DNA from: Eutreptiella sp. 'Long Island Sound 2002'
Lineage: Eukaryota > Euglenozoa > Euglenophyceae > Eutreptiales > Eutreptiaceae
DNA: 64,000 nucleotides
Direction: 5' to 3'
Assembly (NCBI GenBank): GCA_964036045.1
Contig: OZ038379.1
Coordinates: forward strand, 117,131,104-117,195,103
Shown here in pieces: positions 5,833-64,000 of this stretch (position 1 is the stretch's first letter; each line of letters opens with the position of its first letter). The notes under the pieces were generated by a model. The model was given only the letters and a program-made list of their open reading frames with translations, had not been told where the DNA came from and did no database searches. Position numbers and translations under genes: made by a program.

Positions 5833-5833
5833 C

Positions 5834-18547: not shown

Positions 18548-18820
18548 GTGTCACAAGAAAGACGGGAGAAAAGAAGACACAAAAGATCACAGTCACGATC
18601 CAGATCACGGTCAAGGAGAAAGCACCAGACAAGCAAAGAAAGGCCGGATGTCACCCCGCAACACACACACTTAGCACCCCCAACCCAATACACCCGAGGA
18701 TCTCAACCCCCACCCCCTCAACCTACACAAACATATCAAACTCCGAGCCATGCATCACAGACCCGGCAGAATGGTCCTGATGGGCAAGGATGGAGAGGGG
18801 ACTCTCAATGGAACTGTTGA
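18548..18820 (+). CDS. LINE A arginine/serine-rich tract
   Basis: The frame carries RRHKRSQSRSRSRSRRKHQT, an RS-domain-like basic tract, then a Pro/Gln/Thr linker, ending at TGA 18818-18820. RS tracts bind RNA and splicing factors; in a LINE this is probably the RNA-binding tail of ORF1. The next ORF overlaps it from 18750 in another frame. Confidence 0.5.
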   Translation: MSQERREKRRHKRSQSRSRSRSRRKHQTSKERPDVTPQHTHLAPPTQYTRGSQPPPPQPTQTYQTPSHASQTRQNGPDGQGWRGDSQWNC

Positions 18821-19562: not shown

Positions 19563-19596
19563 GTCACCGAACAGAAACTCAGCTGGTGCTTGTATT

Positions 19597-20220
19597 TTGG
19601 TACGAAGGACACAGCAAATTGTGGTTTTGGAGGTCCATTTTGAACTAAACTACCGAGCAGTGGTAGTACGTGCAACCATATCATCAAAAAAGGTGCAACT
19701 AATCAATGTTTACTTGAAATCAGGTGGTGAACCACGTGAACTCCGTGTCACATTAGAGTGGACTGTACCCTTTCTCTTGGATACAGAATTTTTCACTATA
19801 CATGGTGGTGATTTCCAAGCAAACCCAGGCTGGGACATGTCCTGCCCTTTGCCATCCATAGCGATCGGCACAACCATTTTGGAAACCTTTAGTGACACCG
19901 TGGTACCCAAAGAACATGATATGCCCACATGGGTCGCACCTCAGGGTTTCTATGGAGCACTGGATCATTTTTTGATACCTGAACCTTCCAATTACAATGC
20001 TACAGCACGTGTACAATCAACATCCTCATTCCCGTTAGATCATACCCTAATACTTCTTTGTATACCGAATCTCACATCTGTCACCCCCCCATTAGCGCTG
20101 CAACACACTGGCCGCATACTCAATCCAAAGGTGCTATCACCTGGTATGAAGATGCGATATCAGACAACATTTGATGAATTTTTGCCCACTGCAGCGGATG
20201 CATTGGAAGATGAGTGTTAA
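19597..20220 (+). CDS. LINE A APE-type endonuclease
   Basis: No ATG. The frame holds the endonuclease core: VQLINVYL, then HGGDFQANPGWD (the GDxNA motif), GALDHFLIP and FPLDHTLIL (the terminal DH). In LINEs this domain nicks target DNA to prime reverse transcription. The N-terminal motifs are not visible and probably lie in the preceding, shifted frame. TAA ends it at 20218-20220. Confidence 0.75.
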   Translation: MVRRTQQIVVLEVHFELNYRAVVVRATISSKKVQLINVYLKSGGEPRELRVTLEWTVPFLLDTEFFTIHGGDFQANPGWDMSCPLPSIAIGTTILETFSDTVVPKEHDMPTWVAPQGFYGALDHFLIPEPSNYNATARVQSTSSFPLDHTLILLCIPNLTSVTPPLALQHTGRILNPKVLSPGMKMRYQTTFDEFLPTAADALEDEC

Positions 20221-20238
20221 AATTTTTCAACAGCAATA

Positions 20239-20472
20239 TTGCAAGCTGCCAAGAAATTTTTTGGACCACCCACGAATCTTGCAGCCGTACCAAGAGTGGT
20301 ACAACGAGCACAAATTCACAGGCAGCAGTTTGTTGCACAATATCCACACCGGTGGAAAGATACCGCACACATACTCACATATCAAAAGAAGAAAGCATGC
20401 ATCAGGGGAGCATGGGACTTGGTACAGTTGGAGCGCAAATTACAGATTTCAATTATCAGTCCACACAGCTAA
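20239..20472 (+). pseudogene. LINE A linker between endonuclease and RT
   Basis: A 77-codon frame (QAAKKFFGPPTNLAAVPRVV ... KKKACIRGAWDLVQLERKLQ) of clear coding character continues the polyprotein after a frame change at about 20.22 kb, and changes frame again before the RT. Confidence 0.45.
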
Positions 20473-20577
20473 TGAAACAAATGCCCCGAGAAAACCCCTG
20501 TATCGGAGGATTTTCCGCACCGGGGTACAGACTAGGGTGGAACCCATGTTTGTATCAGGCCTCACCACACCCACAGA

Positions 20578-21486
20578 TTGCACGGTCTGATTGGCATGGA
20601 CCAATTTCGACGGAGACATTTGGCTCCCCCTCTCCGCATGGAAGTGGAACACATACAATATCATATGCAATGGTCTCCTCTTACAATACCAGACAACAGA
20701 ATTTTCCCAGCTCAGATGATCAAACACACAATGGCCAATGCATCTCATACCACCCCCTATCAAGACTATTTGGAGTATAAATTTCTGCGTTTCGTGTTAG
20801 ACAAACAATTGGAACGTTCGTCACAGATTGATAACCGGTGGTATAATGGAGAGTACCTCCACAAAGTTTTCCAAGGGGCCTTTTATCCTCTGCCTAACAA
20901 AATACCCCATGGACCAATAGCAAATGCTCAGCCACTTTTAGATTTCACAACCATTTGGAAGTTTATCTCGGCGTGCTTAAAACAGTTTCTTACCCCCATA
21001 TTATGCACAGCACATGTCATACCTCCATCCCAACTTGCACTTCACGGCGGTGCGTCGGCCATAGACACGCTTCGGGTCATACATGACCAAATTTTGGACA
21101 GATGGTTTGCAGATCTGCTGGTTTGCATGGTATTTGATGATGTTAGACATGCCTTTGGATCAGTACAACACGACACTCTTGAAGCTATACTTCGCTTACT
21201 CACTTTTCCTCCTCACCTGATAAGTATTGTCATGAATGCTGCCACAGGAGCCACCCTACATATGGGTGTTAAAAATGGCATCATGGAAGCCGTGGCAAAA
21301 TTTAGAGTAGGTATAGCACAGGGATGTCCCATGTCAGCACTTCTGTTTTGCATCCTTTTGGAACCCAGAATACGCATGGTCCTGCATGGTATTCCTAAGC
21401 CACGATCAAAATGTGGGGATTTTGGGCATGTAGCTTACATGGACGATACCACATATCTCTTGGATCAAGTAACACACATACAATAG
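20578..21486 (+). CDS. LINE A reverse transcriptase
   Basis: 302 codons without ATG. RT blocks are visible in order: AFYPLPNKIPHGPIANAQPL (blocks 1-2), MVFDDVRHAFGSV (motif A with its Asp), IAQGCPMSALLFCILLEP (motif B) and AYMDDTTYLL (motif C, YMDD). The three catalytic Asp are present. The frame ends at TAG 21484-21486, soon after motif C, and coding resumes in another frame at about 21.65 kb. The active site is conserved but the polyprotein is broken. Confidence 0.85.
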   Translation: MHGLIGMDQFRRRHLAPPLRMEVEHIQYHMQWSPLTIPDNRIFPAQMIKHTMANASHTTPYQDYLEYKFLRFVLDKQLERSSQIDNRWYNGEYLHKVFQGAFYPLPNKIPHGPIANAQPLLDFTTIWKFISACLKQFLTPILCTAHVIPPSQLALHGGASAIDTLRVIHDQILDRWFADLLVCMVFDDVRHAFGSVQHDTLEAILRLLTFPPHLISIVMNAATGATLHMGVKNGIMEAVAKFRVGIAQGCPMSALLFCILLEPRIRMVLHGIPKPRSKCGDFGHVAYMDDTTYLLDQVTHIQ

Positions 21487-21645
21487 CTTTTATCCAGTTT
21501 GTATCAGACAAGCATTATGACCCATCTTCACACTTCCACAGTGAAACTTGCAGTAGCTGTGGCACATCGACAGGGTCTCTAGGTCATTTTTGACAGGCCA
21601 GACATTTTGGCAGGATGAAGCACAACACCCATTGCCGATGGAAAA

Positions 21646-22746
21646 ATGTACATTAGGCTATTGGGCAGGCATGCCATGCCACACATTTTTCATACCAATG
21701 ATTTCATAAAAATGATGAGTGCATCTCGCAAAGCCAGCATGTATGTTAGATTACCAGCGAATTATCCCATTTTAATGTACAATGCTTCTGCAGGGGGGGC
21801 ACACGGATGGTTGGGAGGGATCAGACCCCCACCACCAGGACTCATGCGTTTGTTAGATCACCCCGCAGCATCGGCAATCCGTGCCACCGCGAATTGGAGC
21901 TCTGTCCCATCAGCATTATTTTTGCAGCCCCTGGAGACAGGATGGACAGGCATCCAACCCACTACAGTGGTTATGTTGCTTCAGTTTTTGCTCAACTATA
22001 TCAAGCAAGTCAGTCATACAAACCCGGTAGTCAGATACTCAATCCTGCGAAGCCTATGGCGAGCCAGGCAAAGTTTCAGTGAACACATGTCCTGTGCACG
22101 GACGCCTCTTTCCAGCATTTGTCCAGTACATTACACAGACCACTCCTGTTTTCTCCTTCTGAAGCATTCCATGGGTGTAGACACACACTTTCCTACGACC
22201 ATTATGGAACAAGGTGATGATATCCCCATGTATAAAGCAAACCACTCCATGGAAGCCAATCAAATGCATGCATGGATGTCAGAGGGATACCAAACACAAC
22301 GCAAAGCGAAGCAAATGGAATGGCCCATTCCTCTGTGGCAGTATGACCCCCCCCCCCTGAAAGCCATCCCAATTGCACACCCCCTCACAGCGCAAATACC
22401 AGTCATTACACACATACCACAGGAGCCCCTTTTTATGACAGATGGATCATCGTATCCAGATGGACGTTGTGGAGGGTGTATAGCCATCGTATGCACCCAT
22501 ACATATCAGTACACACTATACCCAGTAGTGATCCCCATCTATTTGGACTATTCATACGCAGCAGAACTATATGTTGCCTGGATCCCCGGCGCATCGGGAC
22601 AAATTTACAGTCAACAGATCATGGACAATGGTGTTTTGGAGGGCAGACATACACAGATTCTATGTCATACATTCAAGCACTGCGGGCAGAAAATGATGTC
22701 ACCACCCCCGTCGTTAACAAACTCTTGCAGGCGTGTCGTCATTTAG
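21646..22746 (+). CDS. LINE A RT thumb/connection and RNase H N-half
   Basis: 366 codons, TAG at 22744-22746. The N-terminal ~250 residues form the connection region. Near 22434 begins FMTDGSSYPDGRCGGCIAIV (first RNase H Asp) and YSYAAELYVA (second acidic residue). The RNase H then crosses into frame 3 between about 22600 and 22640. The tail after that in this frame is a shadow. Confidence 0.65.
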   Translation: MYIRLLGRHAMPHIFHTNDFIKMMSASRKASMYVRLPANYPILMYNASAGGAHGWLGGIRPPPPGLMRLLDHPAASAIRATANWSSVPSALFLQPLETGWTGIQPTTVVMLLQFLLNYIKQVSHTNPVVRYSILRSLWRARQSFSEHMSCARTPLSSICPVHYTDHSCFLLLKHSMGVDTHFPTTIMEQGDDIPMYKANHSMEANQMHAWMSEGYQTQRKAKQMEWPIPLWQYDPPPLKAIPIAHPLTAQIPVITHIPQEPLFMTDGSSYPDGRCGGCIAIVCTHTYQYTLYPVVIPIYLDYSYAAELYVAWIPGASGQIYSQQIMDNGVLEGRHTQILCHTFKHCGQKMMSPPPSLTNSCRRVVI

Positions 22747-23906
22747 TCAAATCTTTTGTATCACCCAAGCATATTCATTCGCATAGAACAGGCACATTGT
22801 TGGATAGAACTTTGGATGCTGCGGATCAGGAAGCTAAAAACACAGCACTAAAACAGCAACGGCAAGTAGGATGGATCACAGATCTGGACACAGAGCAAGC
22901 AGTTTTCACAGTGACAGGCACGCAAAAACATGATTTATCAAAATATATTGAACGTAAGCCGAGGGAGATGTACTGTACACAACTTGGAGTATCATATGCT
23001 CGCAACCACACTCAGTATGCCTTGTATGCAAACACAGTGATGAAAGGTGAACTGTTATGGTCAGTGCATTTGCACGCTGTCACACAGAGACACCACATGC
23101 AGCACCCATCGGACACCAAGTGTACCATATGCAAGTTACCAATCACTCACACGCATGCTCAAGCAGGCTGTCCACTTCTGTTCTTGAGAACATGGTATCT
23201 GTATGTCAAACTCACTCATCTCCTTCCAGCCTTGAATCCATCGTGGCGCACATGCCTGCCCACCCCGTGGGGTACTTTGATTGTCACGCCTGTGGGGCAT
23301 CTTGTTTTCACGGTCAACCCAATCACATATATGAGAATACCGCATGATTTGTGTGCTATCAGCTTGACAGGGAAAGTCTCTTGTCAGTCCATGCATCATG
23401 CACAGAGACATGGAGCCACCCACACAATGATGGTACGAGTTCTGGGATCCCTCCTCACAACATGGCACAAGGTTCAACATGTGGAGGGTCCACCACTTTT
23501 ACCGGTGCATCGAAAATACGCAGTGCCACGCAATCCGTACGGCATGACAACGCATATTCTCACCAACCCAGAGAGTTTACAAGGTAAATGGAAGCCATGG
23601 ACAGGGGGCACAATTTTGTGGCCATCCCCGCTGCTTTTGTTTCAAGTAGCTCATCAATACTCGTTGAATGCAAGTTTGCCACATATATTTCTGCCATCTC
23701 TAGACCTTTCCTCAGTTCTACACTGGTATGTGACAAAGTTTACGGGCCACTGGCCAGAAACCCCGGTAGGTGTACCTTCGGTAGCTTTTGTCGATACCCC
23801 AAAACCAATCCGACTGCAAGGGTGTATCACGGGTATCATATATTGGTCTGTGAAATATGGATACCTAGAGCACTGCAGGTATTTAACATGTATTAATCAG
23901 GAATGA
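22620..23906 (+). CDS. LINE A RNase H C-half and zinc finger
   Basis: The frame is open from 22467 but genuine coding starts near 22620. QTYTDSMSYIQALR supplies the third RNase H Asp; HIHSHRTGTLLDRTLDAADQ supplies the final His and Asp. After ~90 residues comes CTICKLPITHTHAQAGC, a CCHC-type finger common at LINE C-termini. About 240 more residues of unassigned C-terminal domain follow to TGA at 23904-23906. Confidence 0.7.
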   Translation, partial: HGQWCFGGQTYTDSMSYIQALRAENDVTTPVVNKLLQACRHLVKSFVSPKHIHSHRTGTLLDRTLDAADQEAKNTALKQQRQVGWITDLDTEQAVFTVTGTQKHDLSKYIERKPREMYCTQLGVSYARNHTQYALYANTVMKGELLWSVHLHAVTQRHHMQHPSDTKCTICKLPITHTHAQAGCPLLFLRTWYLYVKLTHLLPALNPSWRTCLPTPWGTLIVTPVGHLVFTVNPITYMRIPHDLCAISLTGKVSCQSMHHAQRHGATHTMMVRVLGSLLTTWHKVQHVEGPPLLPVHRKYAVPRNPYGMTTHILTNPESLQGKWKPWTGGTILWPSPLLLFQVAHQYSLNASLPHIFLPSLDLSSVLHWYVTKFTGHWPETPVGVPSVAFVDTPKPIRLQGCITGIIYWSVKYGYLEHCRYLTCINQE

Positions 23907-33135: not shown

Positions 33136-33492
33136 GTGTGTGGACTTTATTTTGACTTGCTGGAAAATCAGCAAGGTTTTCTAAAACACATACAAGGAAC
33201 AAGCACATGTGAGAGCAAACCAGAAGCCTTTTCTAGTAGCACAGGAAGGCCTCCCCCCTTCAACCGACTTTTTTTTGACTGGCAGACCACCGCAACACCG
33301 GGTGACCGCCGCAACCTTATCCGCACTCTGATTCCAAACTCTCTAAGTAACATATTTCGTTCACCCCTACCTGCACTCAGTTACACTCAACACAGAAATC
33401 ACCTTTACACAGCCATGAAAACATGGCGCCAACGCCTCCAAACAACACTTCAAGACGTCCAGCAGTGGCTCAGAGATAACCCCAAACCCTGA
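33136..33492 (+). CDS. Unrecognised 118-codon ORF across the repeat edge
   Basis: No ATG-verified gene model; the frame runs from 33136 to TGA 33490-33492. It includes FSSSTGRPPPFNRLFFDWQT and an amphipathic end (TWRQRLQTTLQDVQQWLRDN). It crosses position 33471, where the 901-bp direct repeat begins. A second frame (33503-33919, LSALSAALKTKLGLSDLKKP) follows inside the repeat, so a +1 frame change or splice is possible. Confidence 0.3.
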   Translation: MCGLYFDLLENQQGFLKHIQGTSTCESKPEAFSSSTGRPPPFNRLFFDWQTTATPGDRRNLIRTLIPNSLSNIFRSPLPALSYTQHRNHLYTAMKTWRQRLQTTLQDVQQWLRDNPKP

Positions 33493-34371
33493 TCTGAGTG
33501 CATTGTCAGCAGCACTCAAGACTAAACTGGGGCTCTCTGATTTGAAGAAGCCCCCACCTACCGTGTCCCCTGTGGAACTTTTGACCAGGGATGTGAGAAG
33601 CTGCCGAGGCATCCGAAGCTCTCCTATGGACACCTGTCCGAGCCCTTTCCAGCCCCGTGTGAGGACTGTGCCTGTCTGTAGTGTAGGCAACACCACAGAG
33701 GCCGAGATGAAGAGGTACGGCCTGCCTGCACTGGAGCTCATTGTGGGCAGTGCCCATGGCTATGCTATGGTTCCGGAGCCGTTCCAAGTCGGCCCCGGAG
33801 AACCATGCGGAACGCCACGCGTATACGCACATGCTTGCAAAATTCTCCCACCAGGTTGTACACACCGACTCCCAACGTTTTCCCCCTACTTGATGCTGCC
33901 TCGCACTAGGCTGCTGTAGGCAAGCATCTATTATCTTCTCCCCACCCCTATTCCGCATGAAATGGATGGCAGCAGCACACTTCATCCTCACCTTCCCCTT
34001 GCTGTTTGCCTTGTCATTATTTGATGAGGCACGGGTGCAAGTTCGTGCAGCAAGCCGTGCCTCATCTAGAACCGGTTGCAGCATGGTGAGTGCCACAGTG
34101 GCTGGTGCCTTCCTTGTCAATTGTACAACTAGGTTCCGTGTCCCGTTGATTGCACACAACAGGACACAAAGAACCCCATGGAGGCCATAATCAGGCACTC
34201 GCCTGGCACTCGTAATGGTCCTATATATAGCACCTATGGCAATAGCCGCTTGCCAATTGCCGTCTATCCCACTTGCTGTGCCAAAGGCAGTAAAGAAGGT
34301 CCCTACCAGGACCGGCCCCTGCTGTACCCCTTCCACCATTTCCCGTCACTCCTATGGTCTTGCTTCTCACC
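33471..34371. repeat. 901-bp direct repeat, left copy (empty TA site)
   Basis: This segment recurs at 51194-51485 plus 54420-55028. The first 292 bp are identical and the remaining 609 bp differ at seven positions, all single-base. The left copy lacks the TA transposon: it reads GGC-TA-TGC at 33758-33765. The left copy abuts the first base of LINE B (34372) and the right copy abuts LINE B's ACCT tail. Confidence 0.95.
33506..34339 (-). CDS. 277-codon minus-strand ORF in the left repeat
   Basis: ATG at 34337-34339 on the minus strand. It begins MVEGVQQGPVLVGTFFTAFG and has a mildly hydrophobic N-terminal half, then a charged middle (ASSNNDKANSKGKVRMK). No family is recognised. The right-hand copy of the repeat keeps the same frame for its first 190 residues with three residue changes, then is cut by the TA transposon. 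It may be part of the host locus that received LINE B. Confidence 0.35.
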   Translation of the reverse strand: MVEGVQQGPVLVGTFFTAFGTASGIDGNWQAAIAIGAIYRTITSARRVPDYGLHGVLCVLLCAINGTRNLVVQLTRKAPATVALTMLQPVLDEARLAARTCTRASSNNDKANSKGKVRMKCAAAIHFMRNRGGEKIIDACLQQPSARQHQVGGKRWESVCTTWWENFASMCVYAWRSAWFSGADLERLRNHSIAMGTAHNELQCRQAVPLHLGLCGVAYTTDRHSPHTGLERARTGVHRRASDASAASHIPGQKFHRGHGRWGLLQIREPQFSLECC

Positions 34372-36722: not shown

Positions 36723-39700
36723 CGGGGCCAGGGCCGGACACGGCCCGCCCCCCCAACTACCGGTCCCCAGAAACCGGCGCCTGCGGAAGCCCACGCCCGC
36801 ATCAACATCCTCAACGAGCCCGCGGTCACCTACGACCCCACCAAGGCCGCCACACTGCAAGCCATGCCCGGGCCGCACCCCCAAGGCGCAGACCTCCTGG
36901 GGTTCCTGGAGCAAGCCCTCCGCAGAGCGGACCAACCCGAACCAGCACCGATCCTGGACCCGGAGGGGAACAAATACCACGCCCACTGGGAACGGGGGGT
37001 ACCCCTCTACCACAAGACGTCGGTCACGGTACATGCCCACCCCGACCTCGGAGTGGATGGTCGCCTCGGGGCGTACGAGTGCGTGGGGCCCGGATGGCAG
37101 CTAAACGTGCTACTCACGCACGTCCCGTTCGGGGAGGAGACCAAGGACTTCCTGGACACCCTGAGCCTGGCGTACCGCCAACTCTCCCTCCTGGCACCCA
37201 CCATCATCATAGGCGACCTAAACGCCGCCCCCACCGACGACGACCGCACCGGCCCACCCACAGCCACCGACACAGCTGTCCGGGACGCCATGCACCAACT
37301 AGGCCTCACCGACCTCACGGCAGGACTCACCGGCACACCCTCCCATTACCCCCACCAAGCCGGCACCCACCCATCCCGCATCGACACGTGCTACGGGGAC
37401 CCAACCACGGTGCGCGTCCACGAAGCAGCCTACGGGGACCTCCCGCCCACAGGCACGGGCCACCGGCCCCTCTACATCGACCTCATCATCCCCAACCTAC
37501 CCCCACCCGCGGCCACCCTGCCAGACGACACCCTCCCACCCACTCTGCAGTTCCCGGCCGAGGACGACCACGGCGCCTGGCACAGGTATAACAGGGCCCT
37601 ACACGCCATCCTGCGCCGCCCGGGTGCACCGACACTCACCACCGCCATTCGCCGGGCAGCACAAGCATGCGGCATGGAGCGTGACACCAACCACACGGGA
37701 GCACCACCAGACCTCACCCTCCAGCAACTCGTCCATGACATCTGGACCACGAAAGGGGAACTCGCCACCCTGCTACGCCCCAGCACACCGGAGGCACGAG
37801 ACCGGGACGCCCACCTCCGTGCGCTCCTCAGCACCCGCCGCCACCAACTCCAGGAATGGCAAGCCCACCGCAAAGCGGCCGCAGCCCAAGAACGCGAAAG
37901 ATACGGCAGAAACGACACGCCGTACAAGTCCCTACGGTACGTCAGCCGCATCCTGGAGGACACGGGGCGCCGTACAATCCACGCGATACGCACCCCCGAA
38001 GGAGGCCTCACCAATGACCCCGACGCCGTCCTCCAGGCAGTCCTGGACAGCTTCCAGGCACAACACGGGGACGCCCTCCCCGAGCTCGACCCCCACACCA
38101 GAAACACCATCCGCGAGAATGTGCCGAGGGTCTTCAACCGGGAACAGCGGCGCGCCATCGAACACGACCCCTTCAGCATCTCAGAACTGCAACGCGCCCT
38201 AGACCGCCTGAAGAAGGGGGTCGTGCCCGGCGTCGACGGTTTGCCGGCCGAAGCGTACCAACGCCTCACCCTGCCCATCAAACGCCGCCTGGCAGCCCGC
38301 CTGTGGGACATCGTCACGGGCGCCACGCCCATCCCCCCTGAGTGGGCCAACCTGGTCCACCCCCTCTACAAAAAGGGGGACTGGGCGCAGCCGGGGAACT
38401 GGCGGCCCATAGTCTGCGCCACCACCGAGGTCAAGCTGGTGTGGACGCTCATCCTAGGCCGCATCGCGCCAGCGGTCTTCGCCCACGTGCCCGCCAGCAT
38501 GTGGGGAGCCATGGCCGGCAGGTCCCCCCACGAGGCCATCTTCCTCCAGGACACCGCACTGGACATGAACCCCTACGAGATGATCATCGCCTCCCTCGAT
38601 GTCCAAGGCGCGTTCCCCCACGCCCCACACCGGCTCCTCACGGAGGTATGGGATGCCATGGGCCTCCCATTCCTATCCTTCATGACTGGGTACATCCAGA
38701 CCCGACTCTACGCCGTCATCACAGCCGCAGGCCTCACCCCCTGGACCGGCACAGACAGCAGGGTCCCCCAGGGAGGCGCCGAAGGCCCCTTCCTCTACCT
38801 CCTCGTCACCCTGCCACTGGCATTCGAGCTAGCACGGGTATACCCGGGGTACGCCCCATACCCGCTACGGTCCCCCCTCATCAACTTCGCGGACGACAAC
38901 CTCCTAACTACCGCCACCCGCCACCGCGACCCTGAGAACGCAGGGCTACCAACGACCACCGACCAAGCGTCCGCCATTCTCCAACTCACCACAACCTACC
39001 TGGACGCCCACCAGCTCCTGGTGCACCCCCGCAAATCGGTCGGGCTGGCCGACGCCAAGACCCCCACCCCCCACATCCGGAAAGGCGAACCCCTACACCT
39101 GGAAGACACCACAGTCCACCTGGGAGTCACACAGGCCACGCGGCACCACCACATCACACTCCCAAGCAAGCTAGAAGAGCGCCTCGCCCGGCTATCCCAA
39201 ATTGCCGGGGGGGACCTCCTGTCTACGCAGGGCCTGGCGTACTTCATGGAAGCAGTGCTCAACGCGGCCATCGGGTACCAAGCCCTGCACCTCCCGCGCC
39301 CCCAAGACGCACTACGCCACGCTCGACAGCAAGTGACGAAGGCATGGGCGCAACACGGAGGCTGGCCCACGTCTTTCCCCAAGGAGGCCATGATGGCCCA
39401 CTGGCGCTACTACGGAGACAATACGGGCGCCCTCGCCGACATGGCTTATGCCAAACACGCAGCACACCTCCTACACAGGGTAACACACAACCACCAACCA
39501 GAAGTTCGCGAGGCGGCAGCCATACACATAAAAGAAGCGCAAATGGCCCGCAACACCTGCCCCCGGTGGATACTGGCGCAACACGGCGTCTCCACCCCCG
39601 TGGGCACTGGCATCTGGGCCCAGCTACAACTCCTCCTACCGCACCACACACACGCCATCCTGACAAACCACCACTGCGATCAACAGGGGCCATTCGTGGC

Positions 39701-42046
39701 CACACACACCGACATCCACCGACGCCCGGCAGGCGAGGTGGACACCCTGCGCCTCGTAGGGGCCACCATCACCATAGTGTATATCACCCCAACACAGATG
39801 AAGATCATGGCCCAATGCGACGCCCACCACGCCCCGTTCCTTTCCGACCCACAATGGCCAGCACTCCACGTCTTCCAAGCGTACCTCCGCGCATGTGCTA
39901 CGAAGGCAGGGCGCGACATGCCGGGGCCCAAGGACATCGACACGGCGTACACAGCCTTCCAGCGCCAGCACCCCCGGCCCCGCCCGAGCGAGCACGAGAC
40001 CCCCAACGACGGCGGCACGACGCAGGGGGAGCCCACCCCGTCAGCCGAAGGCTGGACACCACCCACCATCCTGCTACTAGCACCAAACGGCCACAAACAT
40101 GCTACCCGCACTGTCCAGCGACACCATGCCCCCTGGTCCATCCCCAAACACAATGCACCGGAGACCGATGTACCACCAGTCAGACACAGTGACCAGGGCA
40201 TACCACGCACGTGCTGGCACTGCGGCCCGGCAGCCCTGGACACTCCGTGGCCCCTGCTGCACCTCATCTCCACCCACTACCGCACCCCCACCGCCGCCGC
40301 CACCGCCGACCAGCAGGCATGGCTCTCCCCCTGGTTTCACACGGTACCCCCAGACCACCCGGCGCACGTAGCCTGGACCCAAACACCCACGGCGACATGG
40401 ACGTTCACCAACGAGCGGGCAGACCCGGACAGCGTAGCCATGGAGTACGACCGCTGCGACCCACACCGCGCAGGACCTCAGGAGGCACCCATGCGCCCCC
40501 TACAGCACAAATGCCCCACCCTCCGCGGCGACAAAGACGACAAGGAGCGGCGACAGACCATCACGTGCCAGAAGTTCCACCCCAACACGGGATACCTCTT
40601 CCACCTCATGTACGCGTATATCACCCAGGGACGCCCAGACAGGGGCCTCCTCCGCCTCACCCCACGAGCCCAGGCCATCATCACCCAGGGGATAGGCGTC
40701 TATGCAGCGCCACTACTGCAACCCACGCAAATCACCGCCAGAACCGCCCAGGGGAACCCCATCTACGTCTATCACCCAACAGCAATCGCCCGCCTACCCA
40801 TACCCAGCGACACCGACATCATCTACTTCACTGACGCATCCGGCACCCAGCAACGCACCCCCACGGTCGGTTGCGCCTCCGTGCGCATCACCCGGGGCGC
40901 GGACGGCCTCCACGTGGAACACCACACCGGGGCCACCATCTTTGGGGCGTCCTCCCACGGCGAACTGCGCACCATGGCAGACGCCGTCACCGCCACACCG
41001 CCACCCACGACGATCCGGCCCCGCAACATCTGGGTAGTCGTGGACGCCACGGTCGACATCCACCTCACCAGGCGCCTTGCGGACCTGCCCCTCCACAAAG
41101 CACTCGAATCCGGCCTCACCACACAAGCGTTGGGACTATGGATGGCCTTCAAGGGCATGCACCCCCAGGACGCCCTACACATCATCAAGCAGGAGTCACA
41201 CTGCTACGCAAACGGCAATGGACGCGCAGACACGCAGGCCAAACACCAGAACACCAACCACACCCCAGGGCTCGAACGCGTGCGACTGGACACCCCACAC
41301 CACAGCCACCTGCAGCACCTGCCCCCGATACCCCTGGCCACACAGCCCCCCCAATGGATGCCCGAGGACACGCCGTACACGGATCGAGACAAGCAGTACC
41401 ACTACCCCACACCCATCCAGCAACTGGCCACCACACTGGGCCACCCAGCGAACACCGAACTCCTCCGACGCCTCGAAGACTCCGTCCACACCCCCCTCTA
41501 CTACTCCGCCCTGCCACGGATAGTCTCCCAGCACACCTACAAAAGCCCCGACTCCAACTCGCCCTCGAACAACTTTCCCTCCTCACCCGATACCACCGAT
41601 GGTATACGCGCCGCTCGATCCACGTCCCCGCAGGACACACCAAATGCATCTGCAGCCACGCGGAAGAAGAAACATGGGACCACTTCAAGGCGTGCCCCCT
41701 GTACAGAGGACTGGACACCCTCACAGACTGGAACCCAACCCACACCATCGCACAGCACGCCAGATGGCTGACGCAGTCCCCGGCGACCCAGCAACTCACC
41801 ACCGTCCTCAAGCAGACGGAGGTGCTCGAGGCAGTCCGCAGGGGACTCGTCCCCACTGCCGTCTACACCTTGCTACGCACCCACGCGGAGGACCCCCAGG
41901 CCACGGCGGCGCACATGCAGCGGACGGCCGTTGCCAAGACGGCGGAGCAGCTCACATACCGCACCCACAAATACCTGCAGCATGCGGCAACCCTGCCCCC
42001 AACAGACCAAGCCCACCTCCTCAAACTCCTGTTCTACCAACCATGA
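36723..42046 (+). CDS. LINE B pol: endonuclease, RT, RNase H, CCHC finger
   Basis: Open in frame 3 directly after the TGA at 36720; the first ATG is at 36864, but ARINILNEPAVTYDPTK upstream of it is likely domain sequence. Endonuclease: IIIGDLNAAP, SRIDTCYGD and GTGHRPLYIDL (about 37205-37480). RT: YKKGDWAQPGNWRPI, IASLDVQGAFPHAP (motif A), VPQGGAEGPF (B) and FADDNLLT (C, about 38887). RNase H: FTDASGTQQ, HGELRTMAD, VVVDATVD and GNGRADTQAK (40.8-41.25 kb). Near 41530 the reading shifts to frame 2, where KCICSHAEEETWDHFKACP gives the C-terminal finger; frame 3 ends at 41771 and frame 2 at TGA 42044-42046. All RT catalytic Asp are present. Confidence 0.88.
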
Positions 42047-51173: not shown

Positions 51174-51193
51174 ACCTACCTACCTACCTACCT
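51174..51193 (+). repeat. (ACCT)5 tail of LINE B
   Basis: Five exact ACCT units, followed at once by the first base of the right-hand 901-bp repeat. A simple-repeat 3' tail is typical of some non-LTR retrotransposons. The same tail ends the copies at 57201-57220 and 62993-63008. Confidence 0.85.
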
Positions 51194-51485
51194 CAGAGAT
51201 AACCCCAAACCCTGATCTGAGTGCATTGTCAGCAGCACTCAAGACTAAACTGGGGCTCTCTGATTTGAAGAAGCCCCCACCTACCGTGTCCCCTGTGGAA
51301 CTTTTGACCAGGGATGTGAGAAGCTGCCGAGGCATCCGAAGCTCTCCTATGGACACCTGTCCGAGCCCTTTCCAGCCCCGTGTGAGGACTGTGCCTGTCT
51401 GTAGTGTAGGCAACACCACAGAGGCCGAGATGAAGAGGTACGGCCTGCCTGCACTGGAGCTCATTGTGGGCAGTGCCCATGGCTA
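51194..51485. repeat. 901-bp direct repeat, right copy, first part
   Basis: Identical over 292 bp to 33471-33762, ending in the TA that was duplicated when the DNA transposon inserted. Confidence 0.95.
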
Positions 51486-51509
51486 CCCTAGTGACCCCTT
51501 TTGCACACC
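51486..51509 (+). repeat. Left terminal inverted repeat, 24 bp
   Basis: Starts CCCTAGTGACCCC and ends GCACACC; an exact reverse complement of 54394-54417. Confidence 0.95.
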
Positions 51510-51520
51510 TTTGAGCGTAG

Positions 51521-51610
51521 CGGTTGAACAGCGGTTGAACCCAGTTGAACAGCATGTTGCTGTTCAACCCCCCAGTTGAACTCGGTTGAACGCGGTTGAA
51601 CAGTTCAACT
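51521..51610. promoter_or_regulatory. GTTGAAC motif cluster, left subterminal
   Basis: Eight GTTGAAC sites (both orientations) within 90 bp, starting 12 bp inside the left inverted repeat; another at about 51654. Clustered subterminal motifs usually bind transposase; some could also act on the adjacent gene. Confidence 0.7.
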
Positions 51611-51836
51611 GGCCTATCGCGCCAATCGGTGGCGCGTGCTCACGCGATCACGCGTTCAACAGTGGTTAATTAATATACATGACGCATTGAATTGAAGAAT
51701 ATTTAATTTCACCTTTGTGCAATATGGTAGTGTCACCAAAAATAACGTAACAATAAGAACAAATTAGAGCACCAAGAGATTCCCCATTGTGGTTTCTTAC
51801 TTGTATGCAAGGATCCCTCTCATTTTACAATCAAAA

Positions 51837-52187
51837 ATGCCAACGTCAAACTTGAAGCAATGTATTGCAGATCACTACACTGGATTACAATCGGATGAAT
51901 TGATGAGTGATTTGGTCAACTTGTTCACCGCATCCAAGGGTGGTCGTACACTATGGGAACGCCTCAAGACTAGAATGGGTAGTGGGCGGCGTAGTCGACG
52001 CAATGACCGGAAGGTCATGGAAAGGGTGTTTACACCCAAGGATGCCGTCCGGTTGATCCTTGACTTGGAAATGCCGAAAAATAGGTGCTCTACATGTCCT
52101 ACATGCATACCATGGTGCGTTGCATGTATGCAAGGAGTGTTCAACCGTATGCGAGATGCGTTCAAGTGTGCGGTTGAACACATATGA
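51837..52187 (+). CDS. Cys-rich 116-residue ORF of the TA transposon
   Basis: ATG at 51837, TGA at 52185-52187. It begins MPTSNLKQCIADHYTGLQSD. A helical, basic middle (LFTASKGGRTLWERLKTRMG, then RRSRRNDRK) precedes a Cys cluster CSTCPTCIPWCVAC, which could bind zinc. Its last codons overlap an inverted pair of the GTTGAAC motif (about 52138-52182). A DNA-binding role is inferred from the charge and cluster. It may be a first exon spliced to the next ORF. Confidence 0.5.
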   Translation: MPTSNLKQCIADHYTGLQSDELMSDLVNLFTASKGGRTLWERLKTRMGSGRRSRRNDRKVMERVFTPKDAVRLILDLEMPKNRCSTCPTCIPWCVACMQGVFNRMRDAFKCAVEHI

Positions 52188-52289
52188 AACAAATGCGACT
52201 CATGTTTGTGCAACATAGAGTGCCTACCTAGGTTTCATCGAACTATCATGTATATGTCTTCTTCCACATGCAATTTTGGCCCCATTTAA

Positions 52290-53168
52290 AAACGCCGCCT
52301 CGACGAGAAGCGCCAAGAGGCACGTGAGAAGTTCGGGTTGCCAGCGGGATCCGCAGTACGGTGGGTGCTGACCGAGGGTCCAGACAAGCGCCACCGCATC
52401 GCAGTGGGCGCCGTGGCAAAGCCAACGAAGGACGACCCCAAGCCACGGAAGGGGGAGGAGATGGTGAAACTCCCCCCCCAATGGCCCGGAGAGCAGAGTG
52501 AGGCCAACGTCACGTGGCCAGTCATTGTGCGCCTCCGCCACACAGCGTTCACGAGCGAGGATGAGGCAAAGGCCATGTTGGCGAAGTGGGAGGAGAACAT
52601 GGAGAAAGCGACCAAGGAAACCGAGAGCGGAGATGCAAGACATGAAGGCCACGACAAGGAAACCGAGAGCGGAGATGCAAAACATGGAGGCCAAGACGCG
52701 GCAACCGAGAGCGGAGATACAAAAGATGGAGGTCAAGATGGGGCAAGCACGGAAGCAATCGCAAGCACGGAAGCAATCGCGGGAAGTACCACCAATGCGT
52801 CGGACAATGGCACCAAGGAGGACTCCGAGGATCCCATGAAGGAGAGCACTTCAAATGACGTGGACGATTCCAACAAGGAGGGCATGTCCGTGGAGGATTC
52901 GAACAAGGAGGGCACGTCCGTGGACGATGCCAACAAGGAGGGCATGTCCTATGCCCTCAACAACCCCAAGGTGGAGCACGATGCCAAGGAGAATGAACGA
53001 CCTCATGTTGGAGATGATGCAAAGGAGGAAGGTGGACCTCAAGACGGCATGCACGAAGGTGGGAGCGAAAGGGCAATGGCGAGCACAAGGGAGAAGGAGT
53101 GTGCCGATGATGGGAAGGAGGAGGTCGGACCGGAGACGCAAGCGCTATGGGCCGTGGACTCAAAGTGA
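52290..53168 (+). CDS. Acidic repeat-containing ORF upstream of the oxygenase
   Basis: Frame 3 is open after TAA 52287-52289; there is no ATG before about 52460, so an upstream exon or start is likely. The N-terminal ~110 residues are mixed (KRRLDEKRQEAREKFGLPAG, TWPVIVRLRHTAFTSEDEAK). The rest is acidic and repetitive: three ETESGDARHEGHD-like units and four DSNKEGMSVE-like units, probably disordered. It ends in ...WAVDSK-TGA at 53166-53168, with CTAG directly after the stop. The same frame continues into the oxygenase. Confidence 0.55.
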   Translation, partial: KRRLDEKRQEAREKFGLPAGSAVRWVLTEGPDKRHRIAVGAVAKPTKDDPKPRKGEEMVKLPPQWPGEQSEANVTWPVIVRLRHTAFTSEDEAKAMLAKWEENMEKATKETESGDARHEGHDKETESGDAKHGGQDAATESGDTKDGGQDGASTEAIASTEAIAGSTTNASDNGTKEDSEDPMKESTSNDVDDSNKEGMSVEDSNKEGTSVDDANKEGMSYALNNPKVEHDAKENERPHVGDDAKEEGGPQDGMHEGGSERAMASTREKECADDGKEEVGPETQALWAVDSK

Positions 53169-53756
53169 CTAGCCGACAAGGTCCATGAAGCCTTACAAGG
53201 CTTGAAGGGATGGCTCCACAAGAAGAAACATGGAGGAGAGTACCGCCGGATCCTATGGGGAGCAACAAGGAAGTTTCCGACGTTTACACACGTGGGCATG
53301 TCTAAGAGGACACATGATGATGCACATGTTGTGCGCCTTGTAAATAATTTCCTCACAGTTTGTTTACCGTCCCTCAGTTACACCGCAATTTCCATCGTGT
53401 GGGGCAACGGATGTGCACCCATGGATGTACACAAACATCCAAGGGATGACTCCGCGTTGAGTGGGGTGGTGGCGGTGGGTGATTTCCGTGGTGGTGGTTT
53501 CTTTACTACGGCGTGGATGGGTGGTGGGGGGGAGGGGGGGGCGCAGCGTCAAGCATGGATGCAATGTGGGCGTCAAATTGTGCAAGGGGTTGTTGTGGAT
53601 GCACGAAAGGGGGTGATTTTCAATGCGTGGCGTACGCATGGGCCGGAGCGATGGGAGGGTGAAAGGTATGCCATTGTGGCGTATACATCTATCGCGTGGC
53701 ACCGCCTTCCCGCTCCGATGCGCACTGAACTCCTGGACCTGGGGTTCCCATGGTGA
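53169..53756 (+). CDS. TET/JBP-like 2-oxoglutarate/Fe(II) oxygenase domain
   Basis: Same frame as the preceding ORF, entered through UGA-CUA. LADKVHEALQGLKGWLHKKK leads to the domain; the first ATG (in VGMSKRTHDD, about 53298) lies inside it. Features in order: LSYTAISIVWGN, MDVHKHPRD (metal-site block), SGVVAVGDFRGGGFF, VVVDARKGVIFNAWRTHG (distal His), EGERYAIVAYTS (Arg for 2-oxoglutarate) and ELLDLGFPW. This order matches a protist family related to TET/JBP, enzymes that oxidise methylated bases in DNA. The usual HxD reads HKH here, which questions activity. In fungi such genes travel with KDZ transposons; here the carrier has a TA duplication. Confidence 0.7.
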   Translation, partial: LADKVHEALQGLKGWLHKKKHGGEYRRILWGATRKFPTFTHVGMSKRTHDDAHVVRLVNNFLTVCLPSLSYTAISIVWGNGCAPMDVHKHPRDDSALSGVVAVGDFRGGGFFTTAWMGGGGEGGAQRQAWMQCGRQIVQGVVVDARKGVIFNAWRTHGPERWEGERYAIVAYTSIAWHRLPAPMRTELLDLGFPW

Positions 53757-53856
53757 CAGGCACTGGGATTGTTCATCCAATTTGACGTGAATTGTTGGTG
53801 CCATTGTTGTGTGATTGCGATTACGTGCGGCATTTCTCCTAACGCGCTCCAGTGTG

Positions 53857-53920
53857 TGTTCAACCGTGTTCAACCGTGTTCAACCGTGTTCAACCGCGCG
53901 GTTGAACACGCAGTTGAACA
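53857..53920. promoter_or_regulatory. GTTGAAC motif cluster downstream of the oxygenase
   Basis: Four head-to-tail TGTTCAACCG units followed by inverted GGTTGAACAC and AGTTGAACA. Further palindromic pairs lie at 54097-54122 (11-bp arms, 4-bp loop), at about 54311 and at 54358-54380 near the right end. Confidence 0.7.
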
Positions 53921-54393
53921 TGGCCGAACGCGTATGGGCGGCAATATGAAAGTAGCAGAAAATCCATGGTTTTGTGGTTATAATTGATTTGGATAAGGCA
54001 GGTGCACACTGCAAAAACCTCTGAACACCATCCACGATAGAATGGAAGCCAAAGGACCACAATGAAGGTCAAAGCTTAGGGGAATGTGTCAGGTGGGGTG
54101 TTCAACCGCATGGTTGAACACCAAGGCGGCGTTGACGCTACTCTTGGACATGATAGAAAGGGAGTGGCAATGTGAGGGTTATGGCATGGAATAGTGCATT
54201 GGGCATTAGTATGTTGTTAAAAGCATGGTACATCGTCATGGATGGTTTGGAATGGCATGGTGATACGTCAAAAGTTTAATTTTTGGTAAAATTGCACTAC
54301 GCGCGGTGGGGGTGTTCAACCGCTGTTCAGGGGTGGTTCAAGGGCCCAGGTGAAGTCAGTTGAACACCGGTTGAACATAGGACATGGCACCAT

Positions 54394-54417
54394 GGTGTGC
54401 AAAAGGGGTCACTAGGG
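54394..54417 (-). repeat. Right terminal inverted repeat, 24 bp
   Basis: Exact reverse complement of 51486-51509, followed by the TA duplication. Confidence 0.95.
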
Positions 54418-54419
54418 TA

Positions 54420-55028
54420 TGCTATGGTTCCGGAGCCGTCCCAAGTCGGCCCCGGAGAACCATGCGGAACGCCACGCGTATACACACATGCTTGCAAAAT
54501 TCTCCCACCAGGTTGTACACACCGACTCCCAACGTTTTCCCCCTACTTGATGCTGCCTCGCACTAGGCTGCTGTAGGCAAGCATCTATTATCTTCTCCCC
54601 ACCCCTATTCCGCATGAAATGGATGGCAGCAGCACACTTCATCCTCACCTTCCCCTTGCTGTTTGCCTTGTCATTATTTGATGAGGCACGGGTGCAAGTT
54701 CGTGCAGCAAGCCGTGCCTCATCTAGAACCGGTTGCAGCATGGTGAGTGCCACAGTGGCTGGTGCCTTCCTTGTCAATTGTACAACTAGGTTCCGTGTCC
54801 CGTTGATTGCACACAACAGGACACAAAGGACCCCATGGAGGCCATAATCAGGCACTCGCCTGGCACTCGTAATGGTCCTATATATAGCACCTATGGCAAC
54901 AGCCGCTTGCCAGTTGCCGTCTATCGCACTTGCTGTGCCAAAGGCAGTAAAGAAGGTCCCCACCAGGACCGGCCCCTGCTGTACCCCTTCCACCATTTCC
55001 CGTCACTCCTATGGTCTTGCTTCTCACC
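54420..55028. repeat. 901-bp direct repeat, right copy, second part
   Basis: Continues the repeat interrupted at 51485 and matches 33763-34371 at 602 of 609 positions. After 55028 the sequence is unique, so the host flank resumes here. Confidence 0.95.
54425..54996 (-). pseudogene. Right-copy version of the repeat's minus-strand ORF
   Basis: The first ~190 codons of the ORF at 33506-34339, with three residue changes, truncated where the TA transposon begins. No family is recognised. Confidence 0.35.
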
Positions 55029-55595
55029 AGGTTCTGCATGATCTTGCCCTATCCTGCACAATTTCCTACAAAAAATAGTAAAATACGGCTCCTTCACACA
55101 AATCCTGATCTCTTGCAATAACCGACTCCCAAGTACAATAGCTCAAATCCAAATCCACACTGAGGGCTTCCAAGGGTGTTTGAGGTCCCGCGTTAACACT
55201 CAACAACTCCTTTTAACACGCCGGTCGTCTCACGGTGCACACGGAGACACGGGCGTTGGGCATGTACATAGAATTGCACCAAAGAGGAAGCCCTGAAATT
55301 GGCATACGAACACAAATCAGGCAAAGTTTGGGAAAGATGGAAACATACACAATCACAGCCATAGACCCCTCATTCCCTGGACTCAGGACCTTCCCTTGAC
55401 TCGCCAACATGATGCCCTGAACCAAGTCAAATAAGATGGCTAAATGCCATGTGTCAAAGGTCACTACACCAACCCCAAAAATGTGTTCCCTCCCAAGCCT
55501 CTAAATCCTAGCCCAATAGGGGAGGTGGCGTGTCATGGCCTAGAGTGGCACTCAGGATCATGCCCTACCCTGACATAACCTTGGTTGGACTTGGA
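55029..55595. other. Unique flank, nothing recognised
   Basis: Non-coding sequence between the end of the 901-bp repeat and the next element. Presumed continuation of the locus into which LINE B inserted. Confidence 0.5.
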
Positions 55596-56700
55596 GTCGA
55601 TTGGGTGCAAGCGGAGCACGCACACAAACACGCACATCCCAACACCCCAGCCAGGGGTGGCGGGGCGCAGCCCAAACCCGAGCCCAAACACACACACCCA
55701 CACTGCGCACCCGTGCCAGGAGTGGCTGGGTGCAAGCGGAGCGTGCACACGAGCACACACACAGCCCAACGTCCCAGCCAGGAGTGGCAGGGCGCAGCCG
55801 AAACCCGAGCCCAAACACACACACCCACACCGCGCACCCGTGCCAGGAGTGGCTGGGTGCAAGCGGAGCACGCACACAAACACGCACACCCGAACACTCC
55901 AGCCAGGAGTGGCGGGGCGCAGCCGAAACCCGAGCCCAAACACACACACCCACACCGCGCACCCGTGCCAGGAGTGGCTGAGTGCAAGCGGAGCGCGCAC
56001 ACGAGCACACACACAGCCCAACACCCGAGCCAGGAGAGGCGGGGCGCAGCCGAAACCTGAGCCCAAACACACGCACCCACACCGCGCACCCGTGCCAGGA
56101 GTGGCTGGGTGCAAGCGGGGCGCGCACACAAGCAGACACAAACCCCGACACCCCAGCCAGGAGTGGCGGGGCGCAGCCGAAACCCCAGCCCAAACACACA
56201 CAACCACACCGCGCAGCCGTGCAAGGAGTGGCTGGGTGCAAGCTGAGCACGCACACAAACACGCACACCCCAACACCCCAGCCAGGAGTGGCGGGGCGCA
56301 GCCGAAACCCGAGCCCAAACACACACACCCACACCGCGCACCCGTGCCAGAAGTGGCTAGGTGCAAGCAAAGCGCACACGAGCACACACACAGCCCAACA
56401 AGCCAGCCAGGAGTGGCGGGGCGCAGCCGAAACCTGAGCCGAAGCACACACACCCACGCCGCACACCCAAGCCAGGAGTGGCGGGCTGCAAGCGGAGCGC
56501 GCACACAAGCAGACACAAACCCCGACACCCCAGCCAGAACTGGCGGGGCGCAACCGGAACCCGAACCCAACCATACACACCCACACCGCAAACCCCAGCC
56601 AGGAGTGGCAGGGTACAAGCGGAGCGCACACACAAGCGCACACACACCCCAACACCCCAGCCAGGAGTGGCGGGGCGCAGCCGAAACCCGAACCCAACCA
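55596..56700 (+). repeat. ~125-bp minisatellite, about nine units
   Basis: Units contain GCCAGGAGTGGCTGGGTGCA (positions near 55715, 55842, 55967, 56094, 56222, 56346 and on), a CACACACAC run, CAGGAGTGGCGGGGCGCAGC and CGAAACCCGAGCCC. Confidence 0.9.
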
Positions 56701-57220
56701 CAACCCAGACCCAAACACAAGCGCCATGCAACAGTAGGAAACCCAGTGTCCATAGCCCGGGCACTGAGGCAGCCCGTGCCATGCAGGTGACCCGGCCAAA
56801 CGAGATCCGGAGACCGGGGGTAAGGCTGCATCCTAAGGCCTTCGCTGCTTTGGGACTCGAGGCGGGACGTGCGACACCCAAGCACCTCGGAACCCCAGTA
56901 CCAAGAACATGCATGCATGCCTTGGGAACGGGATACGCCAGGAAGTCCGGTAAACCCCTAGGGTTCAGCCCAAAGGAGGGGACGTGCGCAAGCACGGGGG
57001 CCCACCCTCCCGGCATGAAAAGCAGTCACGCTGGCGGCGATCAGCCCTCACGGTGTTGCCCGGGGCCGCTTTGTTGGGGGACACCAGTCAGGTCTAGCGG
57101 GATGTAAGCCGCCTCCTCTCTTCACGCGCGGAACCTCTTCCTGTTCGTCACAGGGGCGACGCCAGGGGGAACCATGGGGCGCCTCTCCACGACCGAGTGC
57201 ACCTACCTACCTACCTACCT
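55596..57220 (+). mobile_element. ACCT-tailed element end, copy 1
   Basis: A ~125-bp minisatellite (55596-56700), a ~500-bp unique part and (ACCT)5 at 57201-57220. This is the same architecture as the LINE B 3' part (minisatellite, unique part, ACCT tail). A near-identical inverted copy occupies 62993 to the window end. There is no ORF I can assign; open frames across the array reflect composition. It is probably a 5'-truncated retrotransposon of the same clan. Confidence 0.6.
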
Positions 57221-62199: not shown

Positions 62200-62992
62200 A
62201 TGGGCATGTGATTGACCATGCCCTGGTCTTCGCGCACTTGGGCAACCGCCACGCTGGGGCCATGTTCGCCAGATGTCACAGTGTGGTCGGCCGCTCCGGT
62301 GGGGAAATGTCGGTCATGGCGAAGTGGATCTCCGACTCAGCATCGGCATTGTCCGCGTTGCAGACCTCCAGCTGGTGCACGCGCCCCCTGAAGAAGAGCA
62401 TGCACTGCTCGCCGACCTCGATGATGGCAAGGTCGGAGGCAGGGGCCTACCGGGAGAGGAAGGTGGGGTGGAGAGGGGCAGGTGGGGGCGCCTGCCGGGA
62501 CGGACTCGGGGGGGTCGGCGAAGAGGGCCTGGGCAGTGTCCCCCTCCCACAACCCGACCCTCCCAACCGCCCCCTTCCCCACCCACAACACCTGGTCCAC
62601 GCTGGGGACGTCCAAGCTGGACAAATCCCCAGCAACGTCCAGGGCCTCCTTTTGGGGGGGTGGGGTTGTGGTGTGTGGTGTTGGGCTGGTGGTGTTTGTG
62701 TGCGTGGTCCGGGGTCCAAAAGTGAAAAGGAGCCCCCTGCAGCCCATCCTTGGAGTATGGGAGGGCGGGCACCCCATGGTGGCGGCTGGTGGCCACCACA
62801 AGCAGCATGTCCCCCCGCTGCAGCTCAATGGTGTCCCAGTGCGCCTCCCCTGCCTCCCCCTGGGCCGTCCCGGCCTGCATCGCCACCTGGTAGTCCTCGG
62901 ACAAGCAGAGGAAGCTACTTACGTGGCACCCCGAGATGTCCTTGCTGTTGGGAGGGAGCACCTCGGTGTGGGTGGCTACATCGGAGTGGGGG
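62200..62992 (-). pseudogene. 5' exon with cupin/2OG-oxygenase-like segment, truncated
   Basis: The minus-strand reading begins at the junction with the ACCT tail: HSDVATHTEVLPPNSKDISG, ..., AHWDTIELQRGDMLLVVATS, RHHGVPALPYSKDG, FHFWTPDHAHKHHQPNTTH, ALDVAGDLSSLDVPSVDQVL and, near the exon end, VGEQCMLFFRGRVHQLEV, ESEIHFAMTDISPPERP. RGD-x(9)-RHHG looks like the distal strand of a cupin or 2-oxoglutarate oxygenase fold; the HxD/E may be in ATHTEV or in lost sequence. One frame change lies at a G7 run (about 62651-62657). The 5' end is cut by element copy 2. Confidence 0.45.
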
Positions 62993-64000
62993 AGGTAGGT
63001 AGGTAGGTGCACTCGGTCGTGGAGAGACGCCCCATGGTTCCCGCTGGGGTTGCCGCTGTAACGAACAGGAAGAGGCTCCGCGCTTGAAGAGGGGAGGCGA
63101 CTTACATCCCGCTAGACCTGACTGGTGGCCCCCAACATAGCGGCCCCGGGCAACGGCGTGAGGGCTGATCGCCGCCAGCGTGACTGCTTGTCTCGCCGGG
63201 AGGGTGTGCCCCCGTGCTTGCGCACGTCCCCTCCTTTGGGCGGAACCCTAGAGGTTCACCGGACTTCGTGGCGTATCCCGTTCCCAAGGCATGCATGCAC
63301 TTTCTTGGTACTAGGGTTCCGAGGCGCTTGGGTGTCGCACGCTCTGTCTCGAGTCCCTAAGCAGCGCAGGCCTTAGGATGCAGCCTTACCCCCGGTCTCC
63401 GGATCTCGTTTGGCTGGGTCAGCTGCATGGCACGGGCTGCCTCAGTGCCCGGGCTTTGGACACTGCGTTTCCTACTGTTGTGTGGTGCTTGTGTTTGGGT
63501 CTGGGTTGTGGTTGGGTGTGGGTTTTGGTAACCCCGCCAGTCCTGGCTGGGGTCTTGGGCGGGTGTGTGTGGGTACGGTTTATGGTGTCGTCCCTCTTTT
63601 GCCGGCTCGGGTTTGTGGTGTTTGCGGTTGGGCTTGGGTTTTGGCCTGCACCCCACCTTTCGTGGTTGGGGATATGGGACGTGCGTGGTTGCGTGCGCGT
63701 TCTGCCTGCACCCCGCCGTGCGTGCTGGGGTCTGGGTTTCGGCTGCGCCCCGCCACTCCTTGGGGGGTGTTGGGGCGTGTGTGTGCTCGTGTGCCCGTCC
63801 CGCGTGGTCTCCTGCACCTCCTGGTTGGGGGTGCTGTGGGGGGGTGTGTGGTTGGTGCCACGCCCCGCCACTCCTGGCTGGGGCGTCGGGGTGTGTGTGT
63901 GTTTGTGCCCGCGCCCCGTTTGTTCCCCGCCTCTCCTGGCTGGGGTGTGCTGTGTGGGCGTGCGTGTTGGGCCCGGGTCTCCGCTGTGCCCCGCCCTTCT
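62993..64000 (-). mobile_element. ACCT-tailed element end, copy 2 (inverted)
   Basis: Read on the minus strand: C-rich minisatellite (64000 to about 63530, continuing beyond the window), the ~500-bp unique part, and four ACCT units at 63008-62993. Its unique part matches 56700-57200 closely. It is inserted against the 5' end of the minus-strand gene relic. Confidence 0.6.

Follow-up and report, generated by a model that had tools for sequence, protein, structure and literature searches.

Known carriers of oxygenase genes and the element of the window

Kyakuja, Dileera and Zisupton (KDZ) elements are known carriers of TET/JBP genes and make target-site duplications of 7-8 bp (PMC12730594; this and the other articles given by PMC number are cited from excerpts). 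According to Kojima 2025 (PMC12730594), TET/JBP genes are also found in hAT, Harbinger, IS3EU, EnSpm, ESTA, Plavaka and Helitron elements, and the TA-duplicating types among these carriers are ESTA and PHISTA, the latter within Harbinger. The fungal TET-carrying EnSpm, ESTA and Plavaka elements duplicate 3 bp (EnSpm), TA (ESTA) or 2-3 bp (Plavaka B) of their target. Duplications of 2 bp are described for CACTA elements (PMC6004678), and the motifs C(2)C and H(3-4)H mark the CACTA/EnSpm-Mirage-Chapaev (CMC) group (PMC12730594, PMC4592977). Here we describe a DNA transposon of Eutreptiella sp. 'Long Island Sound 2002' that carries an oxygenase-like frame. It lies in a stretch of 64,000 nucleotides (the window; assembly GCA_964036045.1, contig OZ038379.1, positions 117,131,104 to 117,195,103 of the forward strand). 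An earlier account of the window drawn from its letters alone, hereafter the sequence-only reading, took the described TET/JBP carriers to be KDZ elements, a view outdated by the list of superfamilies above.

The element very probably belongs to a young, high-copy family of DNA transposons and is a non-autonomous copy with an internal deletion; the full-length form of the family measures about 7.2 kb. The ends, a 2-bp duplication without fixed sequence, the empty site, the scattered insertions and the deletion relative to a full-length copy are established directly.

Borders of the element and its empty site

The two 24-bp terminal inverted repeats (TIRs; CCCTAGTGACCCCTTTTGCACACC) of the window copy are identical at 24 of 24 positions, similarity fades further inward, and a TA stands at both ends. 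When the flanks are joined without the element they match positions 33469-34371 over 903 bp, gap-free and with seven mismatches (99.2%). Positions 33761-33762 are therefore the empty site, and the uninterrupted GGC-TA-TGC is read there in the second copy of the target repeat. The sequence-only reading had correctly placed the exact borders, the perfect repeats and this preserved site; the length of 901 bp that it gave for the repeat is to be corrected to 903 bp. The features of the element and its empty site are the following:

33469-34371, plus strand: uninterrupted second copy of the target repeat (903 bp); the TA of the empty site is at 33761-33762
51484-51485, no strand: left target-site duplication, TA, 2 bp (comparison of flank and empty site)
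51486-54417: DNA transposon copy, borders exact from TIRs, TA duplication and empty site
51486-51509, plus strand: left TIR, 24 bp (identity to the right TIR)
51523-51660, no strand: left subterminal GTTGAAC/GTTCAAC cluster, with a further pair at about 52139-52179
51837-52187, plus strand: Cys-rich open reading frame (ORF) of 116 aa, counted from its first ATG and retained from the left end of the full-length form
52288, no strand: junction left by the internal deletion, where position 803 of the 7,190-bp copy meets about position 5,062, with about 1 bp of overlap
52290-53165, plus strand: acidic repetitive frame, part of the predicted last exon of gene 2, severed from the upstream exons
53166-53172, plus strand: in-frame UGA CUAG where the acidic part gives way to the oxygenase-like part
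53169-53756, plus strand: oxygenase-like frame, 195 aa, TET/JBP-like by eye only, ending with TGA at 53754-53756
53858-54376, no strand: right subterminal GTTGAAC/GTTCAAC clusters
54394-54417, minus strand: right TIR, 24 bp (identity to the left TIR)
54418-54419, no strand: right target-site duplication, TA (comparison of flank and empty site)

The two copies of the target repeat diverge by 0.78%, whereas the element diverges from its nearest relatives by 0.14% over 2.1 kb; the same 0.14% separates the right part of the window copy from that of the long copy L010. The insertion is thus apparently younger than the duplication of the target repeat, a statement that compares divergences and is not a clock. 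The empty copy of the target repeat contains an open frame of 279 aa on the minus strand (33506-34345) with no Pfam match, and the transposon interrupts this frame in the other copy (51192-55028). The first 20 bases of the TIR had no match in the viral contigs.

A young family with many copies

We searched the 2.28-Gb genome with the DNA of the element, scoring the best 40 of 519 first-look candidates, and obtained 42 long matches, among them the window copy itself and a tandem array that counts as three units. The right ends of all 42 copies fall at the same base, where the right TIR is present in every case, with a single base change in one copy; on the left side, 12 other copies were seen to begin with the first 20 bases of the left TIR. 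Pairwise divergence averages 0.46% over 2.1 kb and is at most 0.85% in 861 pairs. A protein search with the 506-aa frame of the full-length element (see below), in which the best 85 of 8,783 candidates were scored, placed this frame at no fewer than 85 positions in the genome with 94-100% identity; 64 of the 86 matches listed have no internal stop. Counts from both searches are lower bounds. Near-identical copies in the genome number dozens or more, and recent activity of the family is the best-supported conclusion.

The right flanks of the 42 copies differ, except for two units of the tandem array that have a common flank. To read both sides of an insertion, we looked for the two ends of 16 copies (the window copy, L009, L010, L013 and 12 further left ends), and both TIRs were intact in 13 of them. 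Each of these 13 copies is flanked by a duplication of 2 bp, with a third base that never matches: TA (window copy, L039), TT (L009, L014), TG (L010, L028), CA (L013), AT (L011, L017), AA (L025, L012), GA (L030) and TC (L032). The family therefore makes a 2-bp duplication that is not TA-specific (eight different dinucleotides in 13 copies, TA in two), and the TA of the window is one draw. Different flanks together with a constant duplication length identify a transposon; segmental duplication is ruled out. Among the 16 copies, the left end of L022 and L020 was not found. In L016 (left end, L061) the left inverted repeat starts only at its sixth base, with no matching duplication next to it.

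One locus, L024 (C10:25540000-25549999), contains three copies of the element in tandem with a spacing of 2,630 bp. The second and third have lost their left side up to one and the same base, and the array is more likely a tandem duplication of the right part of the element than three insertions.

The full-length element and the deletion in the window copy

The long copy, assembled from L010 and the adjoining L048, has 7,190 bp between the same inverted repeats. Compared with it, the window copy consists of positions 1-803 joined to positions 5,061-7,190 and has lost 4,258 bp. Other deletion derivatives (L009, L013) have junctions of their own. The lost part contains the 506-aa frame and most of a second gene, which accounts for the missing transposase that the sequence-only reading had remarked on. 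The Cys-rich ORF was retained; it had no Pfam match up to E 10, and its two matches in PHROGs (E 0.24 and 0.26) are taken as chance.

The full-length element has subterminal GGTTGAAC/GTTCAACC repeats and 24-bp inverted repeats of the form CCCTAG...CTAGGG. The motifs GTTGAAC and GTTCAAC are dense and in both orientations, with 38 occurrences where simulations expect 1.6. The window element alone has 22, against a mean of 0.65 and a maximum of 4 in 200 Markov simulations.

The 506-aa frame, at positions 846-2363 of the full-length copy, is our transposase candidate. The sequence-only reading had proposed a search of longer copies for a transposase but had not recognised the window copy as a deletion derivative. 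By eye it presents the blocks RGDGFP, GGDSPW and VESLN, which can be read as a D-D-E triad (D139, D220 and E451) with 80 and 230 residues between its members. Both this "transposase" label and the "oxygenase" label used below rest on motifs read by eye. The frame would be a DDE-type transposase, moving the element by cut and paste with cuts staggered by 2 bp and serving the window copy in trans; the latter was probably moved by transposase from a full-length copy. Single-protein scans, which reach close relatives only, gave no relatives of the 506-aa frame in viral contigs or genome contigs. One viral contig (L067), retrieved with a degenerate DNA pattern for GD.PWLR, was ruled out, as its frame is full of stops.

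An oxygenase-like domain behind an in-frame UGA

Only a single TGA, at 53166-53168, divides the acidic ORF from the oxygenase-like one; the two form one reading frame. In the full-length copy, gene 2 would comprise three exons (2541-3452, 3755-4828 and 5033 onward) that, when spliced, give 1,160 codons from the ATG with one internal stop, the UGA at codon 965. The two putative introns are of phase 0, measure 302 and 204 nt, have the form GTG...AG and both hold GTTGAAC or GTTCAAC repeats. The last exon would end as an acidic protein at the UGA, and the oxygenase-like domain behind it would either be reached by stop-codon readthrough or have been lost to mutation.

The likeness to oxygenases is a matter of motif order, read by eye: an Asp/His cluster is followed by GDFRGGGFF, and this in turn by THGPER and GERYAIVAY. 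A possible iron site (...MDVHKHPRDD..., ...RTHGPERWEGER...) was compared by eye with the two-His-one-carboxylate pattern HxD/E...H followed by G-x-R, and its first cluster gives DxH where HxD is expected. Searches of Pfam, PHROGs and NCBIfam gave nothing for the 195-aa frame, and those of PDB sequences only unrelated weak matches (best E 0.59); a single-sequence AlphaFold model had a mean pLDDT (predicted local distance difference test) of 35 and was unusable. Single-protein scans limited to close relatives gave none in viral contigs or phages. The absent profile match is not decisive, because very diverged transposon oxygenases were linked to known ones only by structure-based comparison (PMC12730594). 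Of the Cys-rich, acidic and oxygenase ORFs given by the sequence-only reading, all are thus present, with two amendments: the last two belong to one frame, and the oxygenase is without profile support.

The sequence TGACTAG is found in all 42 aligned copies. Eight further stretches were taken at copies with low transposase identity; the five that cover the site all have TGA, followed by CTAG in four and CTAT in one. The UGA is therefore present in 47 of 47 copies read. Since the copies are young and diverge little from each other, its retention is as compatible with a nonsense mutation in a founder as with readthrough. In humans, UGA CUA is the consensus context of stops with high readthrough, and a G as the next base is best (PMC4359377). 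LDHB, AQP4 and other readthrough genes in that article have the same UGA CUAG followed by an open frame. They differ in that their readthrough was tested experimentally, whereas the element is known from sequence and its extension would be a domain of 195 aa.

Variant changes in the 42 copies were counted on both sides of the UGA. The acidic part has 46 nonsynonymous, 19 synonymous and no nonsense changes, the oxygenase-like part 26, 13 and none, with an expected nonsense share of 3.6-3.8%. Indels and wrong frames were analysed in 30 copies and the reference, after 12 of the 42 had been dropped for deletions, short left parts or a tandem duplication. In this set the last exon is free of indels, and the wrong-frame controls of the acidic part give three nonsense changes each.

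Several observations weigh against these readings of the two genes and of the family. The exons of gene 2 are predicted from sequence alone, and exon 2b has one nonsense change and several frame-breaking indels among the 30 copies and the reference. In that set exons and non-coding parts are not set apart by how densely variable sites occur, with 0.048-0.054 in the last exon and a similar 0.056 in the 3' non-coding part. A 1-base insertion interrupts the acidic part in one copy of the 42, and three of the eight further stretches (L068, L071, L074) have gaps in or near the oxygenase-like domain. Purifying selection is hard to see, with weak constraint at best; the copies are too young for their variation to give a strong signal. 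No protein of the element had a significant profile match, and the 506-aa frame had none in Pfam, NCBIfam or PDB sequences (single-sequence searches, to E 10 for Pfam and PDB). Internal stops occur in 22 of the 86 listed matches of this frame, and no diverged family was retrieved among the matches listed.

The UGA might be an inactivating mutation fixed in the founder copy of the burst, with the oxygenase-like domain a dead remnant, an account that we believe about as much as we doubt it. The shared UGA proves little in copies so young, the CTAT in one of the five further copies and 11 gapped positions inside the oxygenase-like domain of L074 speak for decay, and RNA structure downstream of the stop does not exceed that of shuffles (z -0.94 and -1.37, values that 33 and 16 of 200 shuffles attain). 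Against decay stand the high-readthrough context UGA CUA(G) (PMC4359377), the lack of nonsense among 39 variant changes behind the UGA in 42 copies, and the absence of indels there in the 30 aligned copies. For a hidden splice that would skip the UGA, inspection by eye showed only gaps much shorter than the putative introns (302 and 204 nt), with weak donors, which makes such a splice less likely.

Relation to described transposon groups

The element resembles CACTA/EnSpm and the wider CMC group in its 2-bp duplication without fixed sequence (eight dinucleotides among 13), its C-rich short termini, its two-orientation subterminal repeats, clustered at both ends, and its internally deleted derivatives. 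Subterminal repeats and deletion derivatives are traits of the CMC group. The terminal CCCTA at both ends fits the CMCWR consensus that Yuan and Wessler reportedly gave for CMC termini in 2011, and the candidate triad has a large D-to-E insertion. On the other side, the 506-aa frame, the triad of which was itself read by eye, contains no CxxC and no HxxxH or HxxxxH anywhere, single-sequence searches gave it no Pfam match or solved relative, and the ends are CCC..GGG rather than the CAC..GTG of CACTA/EnSpm. Formal membership in the CMC group is plausible, if somewhat short of probable; we do not claim it, because C(2)C and H(3-4)H are absent and the ends are CCC..GGG.

The fungal TET-carrying EnSpm, ESTA and Plavaka elements are alike in combining oxygenase-like and transposase frames in a DNA transposon with short duplications. 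They differ in the duplications given above and in their termini; those of Plavaka (TGT..ACA or CATCA..TGATG) are not those of the element (PMC12730594). The term "stop codon" is absent from the main text of that article. The 2-bp duplication in 13 of 13 two-ended copies also sets the element apart from KDZ, with 7-8 bp (PMC12730594). In the open-access literature searched (titles and abstract starts), no 2-bp-duplicating, CCC-ended element of this kind is named.

The sequence-only reading had proposed a TA-duplicating transposon, and TA does flank the window copy and L039. Elements of the Tc1/mariner type have an invariant TA duplication and a D-to-E spacing of 34-41. Here 11 of the 13 two-ended copies duplicate other dinucleotides, TA begins only 3 of 42 right flanks (39 lack it), and the candidate spacing from the second D to the E is 230 residues. 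As a rule of the family TA specificity is ruled out, and a TA-specific transposon of the Tc1/mariner or ESTA/PHISTA type is very unlikely. Capture of the Cys-rich ORF from the host by the window copy could be suspected from the long-stretch matches to the left part of the query, which among the DNA-search matches listed are the window copy and one other place only, yet it is ruled out, with next to no chance of being right, by the same left 803 bp at the left ends of the full-length L010/L048 and of L013.

Other elements in the window

Downstream of the empty-site repeat, positions 36723-41771 (plus strand) encode an open frame of 1,682 aa with RVT_1 (E 4.5e-15) and Exo_endo_phos (E 7.6e-08) matches, apparently a non-LTR (long terminal repeat) retrotransposon. 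A second reverse-transcriptase element extends over several frames at 18675-23906 (plus strand), with RVT_1 at E 4.2e-11 in 20536-21486 and no RVT_1 match in 18675-19562. Positions 55503-56722 and 62990-63995 hold a tandem array of about 126-bp period (eight overlapping copies of a 300-nt reference) and, at the end of the window, an inverted stretch related to it.

Implications

A TA duplication at a single copy is no proof that a transposon is TA-specific. What was an orphan element is now tied to a recently active family, the full-length form of which carries a transposase candidate. It is possible, although we think it rather unlikely, that the family represents an undescribed cut-and-paste lineage with 2-bp duplications of unfixed sequence, a DDE transposase outside the zinc-motif CMC type, and an oxygenase-like domain made as a C-terminal UGA CUAG readthrough extension of a more abundant 964-aa accessory protein. 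If so, the element would make little enzyme for each accessory protein, at a fixed ratio, and this could have a part in its success in a genome of 2.28 Gb. The oxygenase, if active, would oxidise modified bases and might help the element escape silencing. If the UGA is read through, this would be a transposon that rations a base-modifying enzyme by translational readthrough, and its many near-identical copies would offer a practical system to test enzyme-aided escape from silencing.

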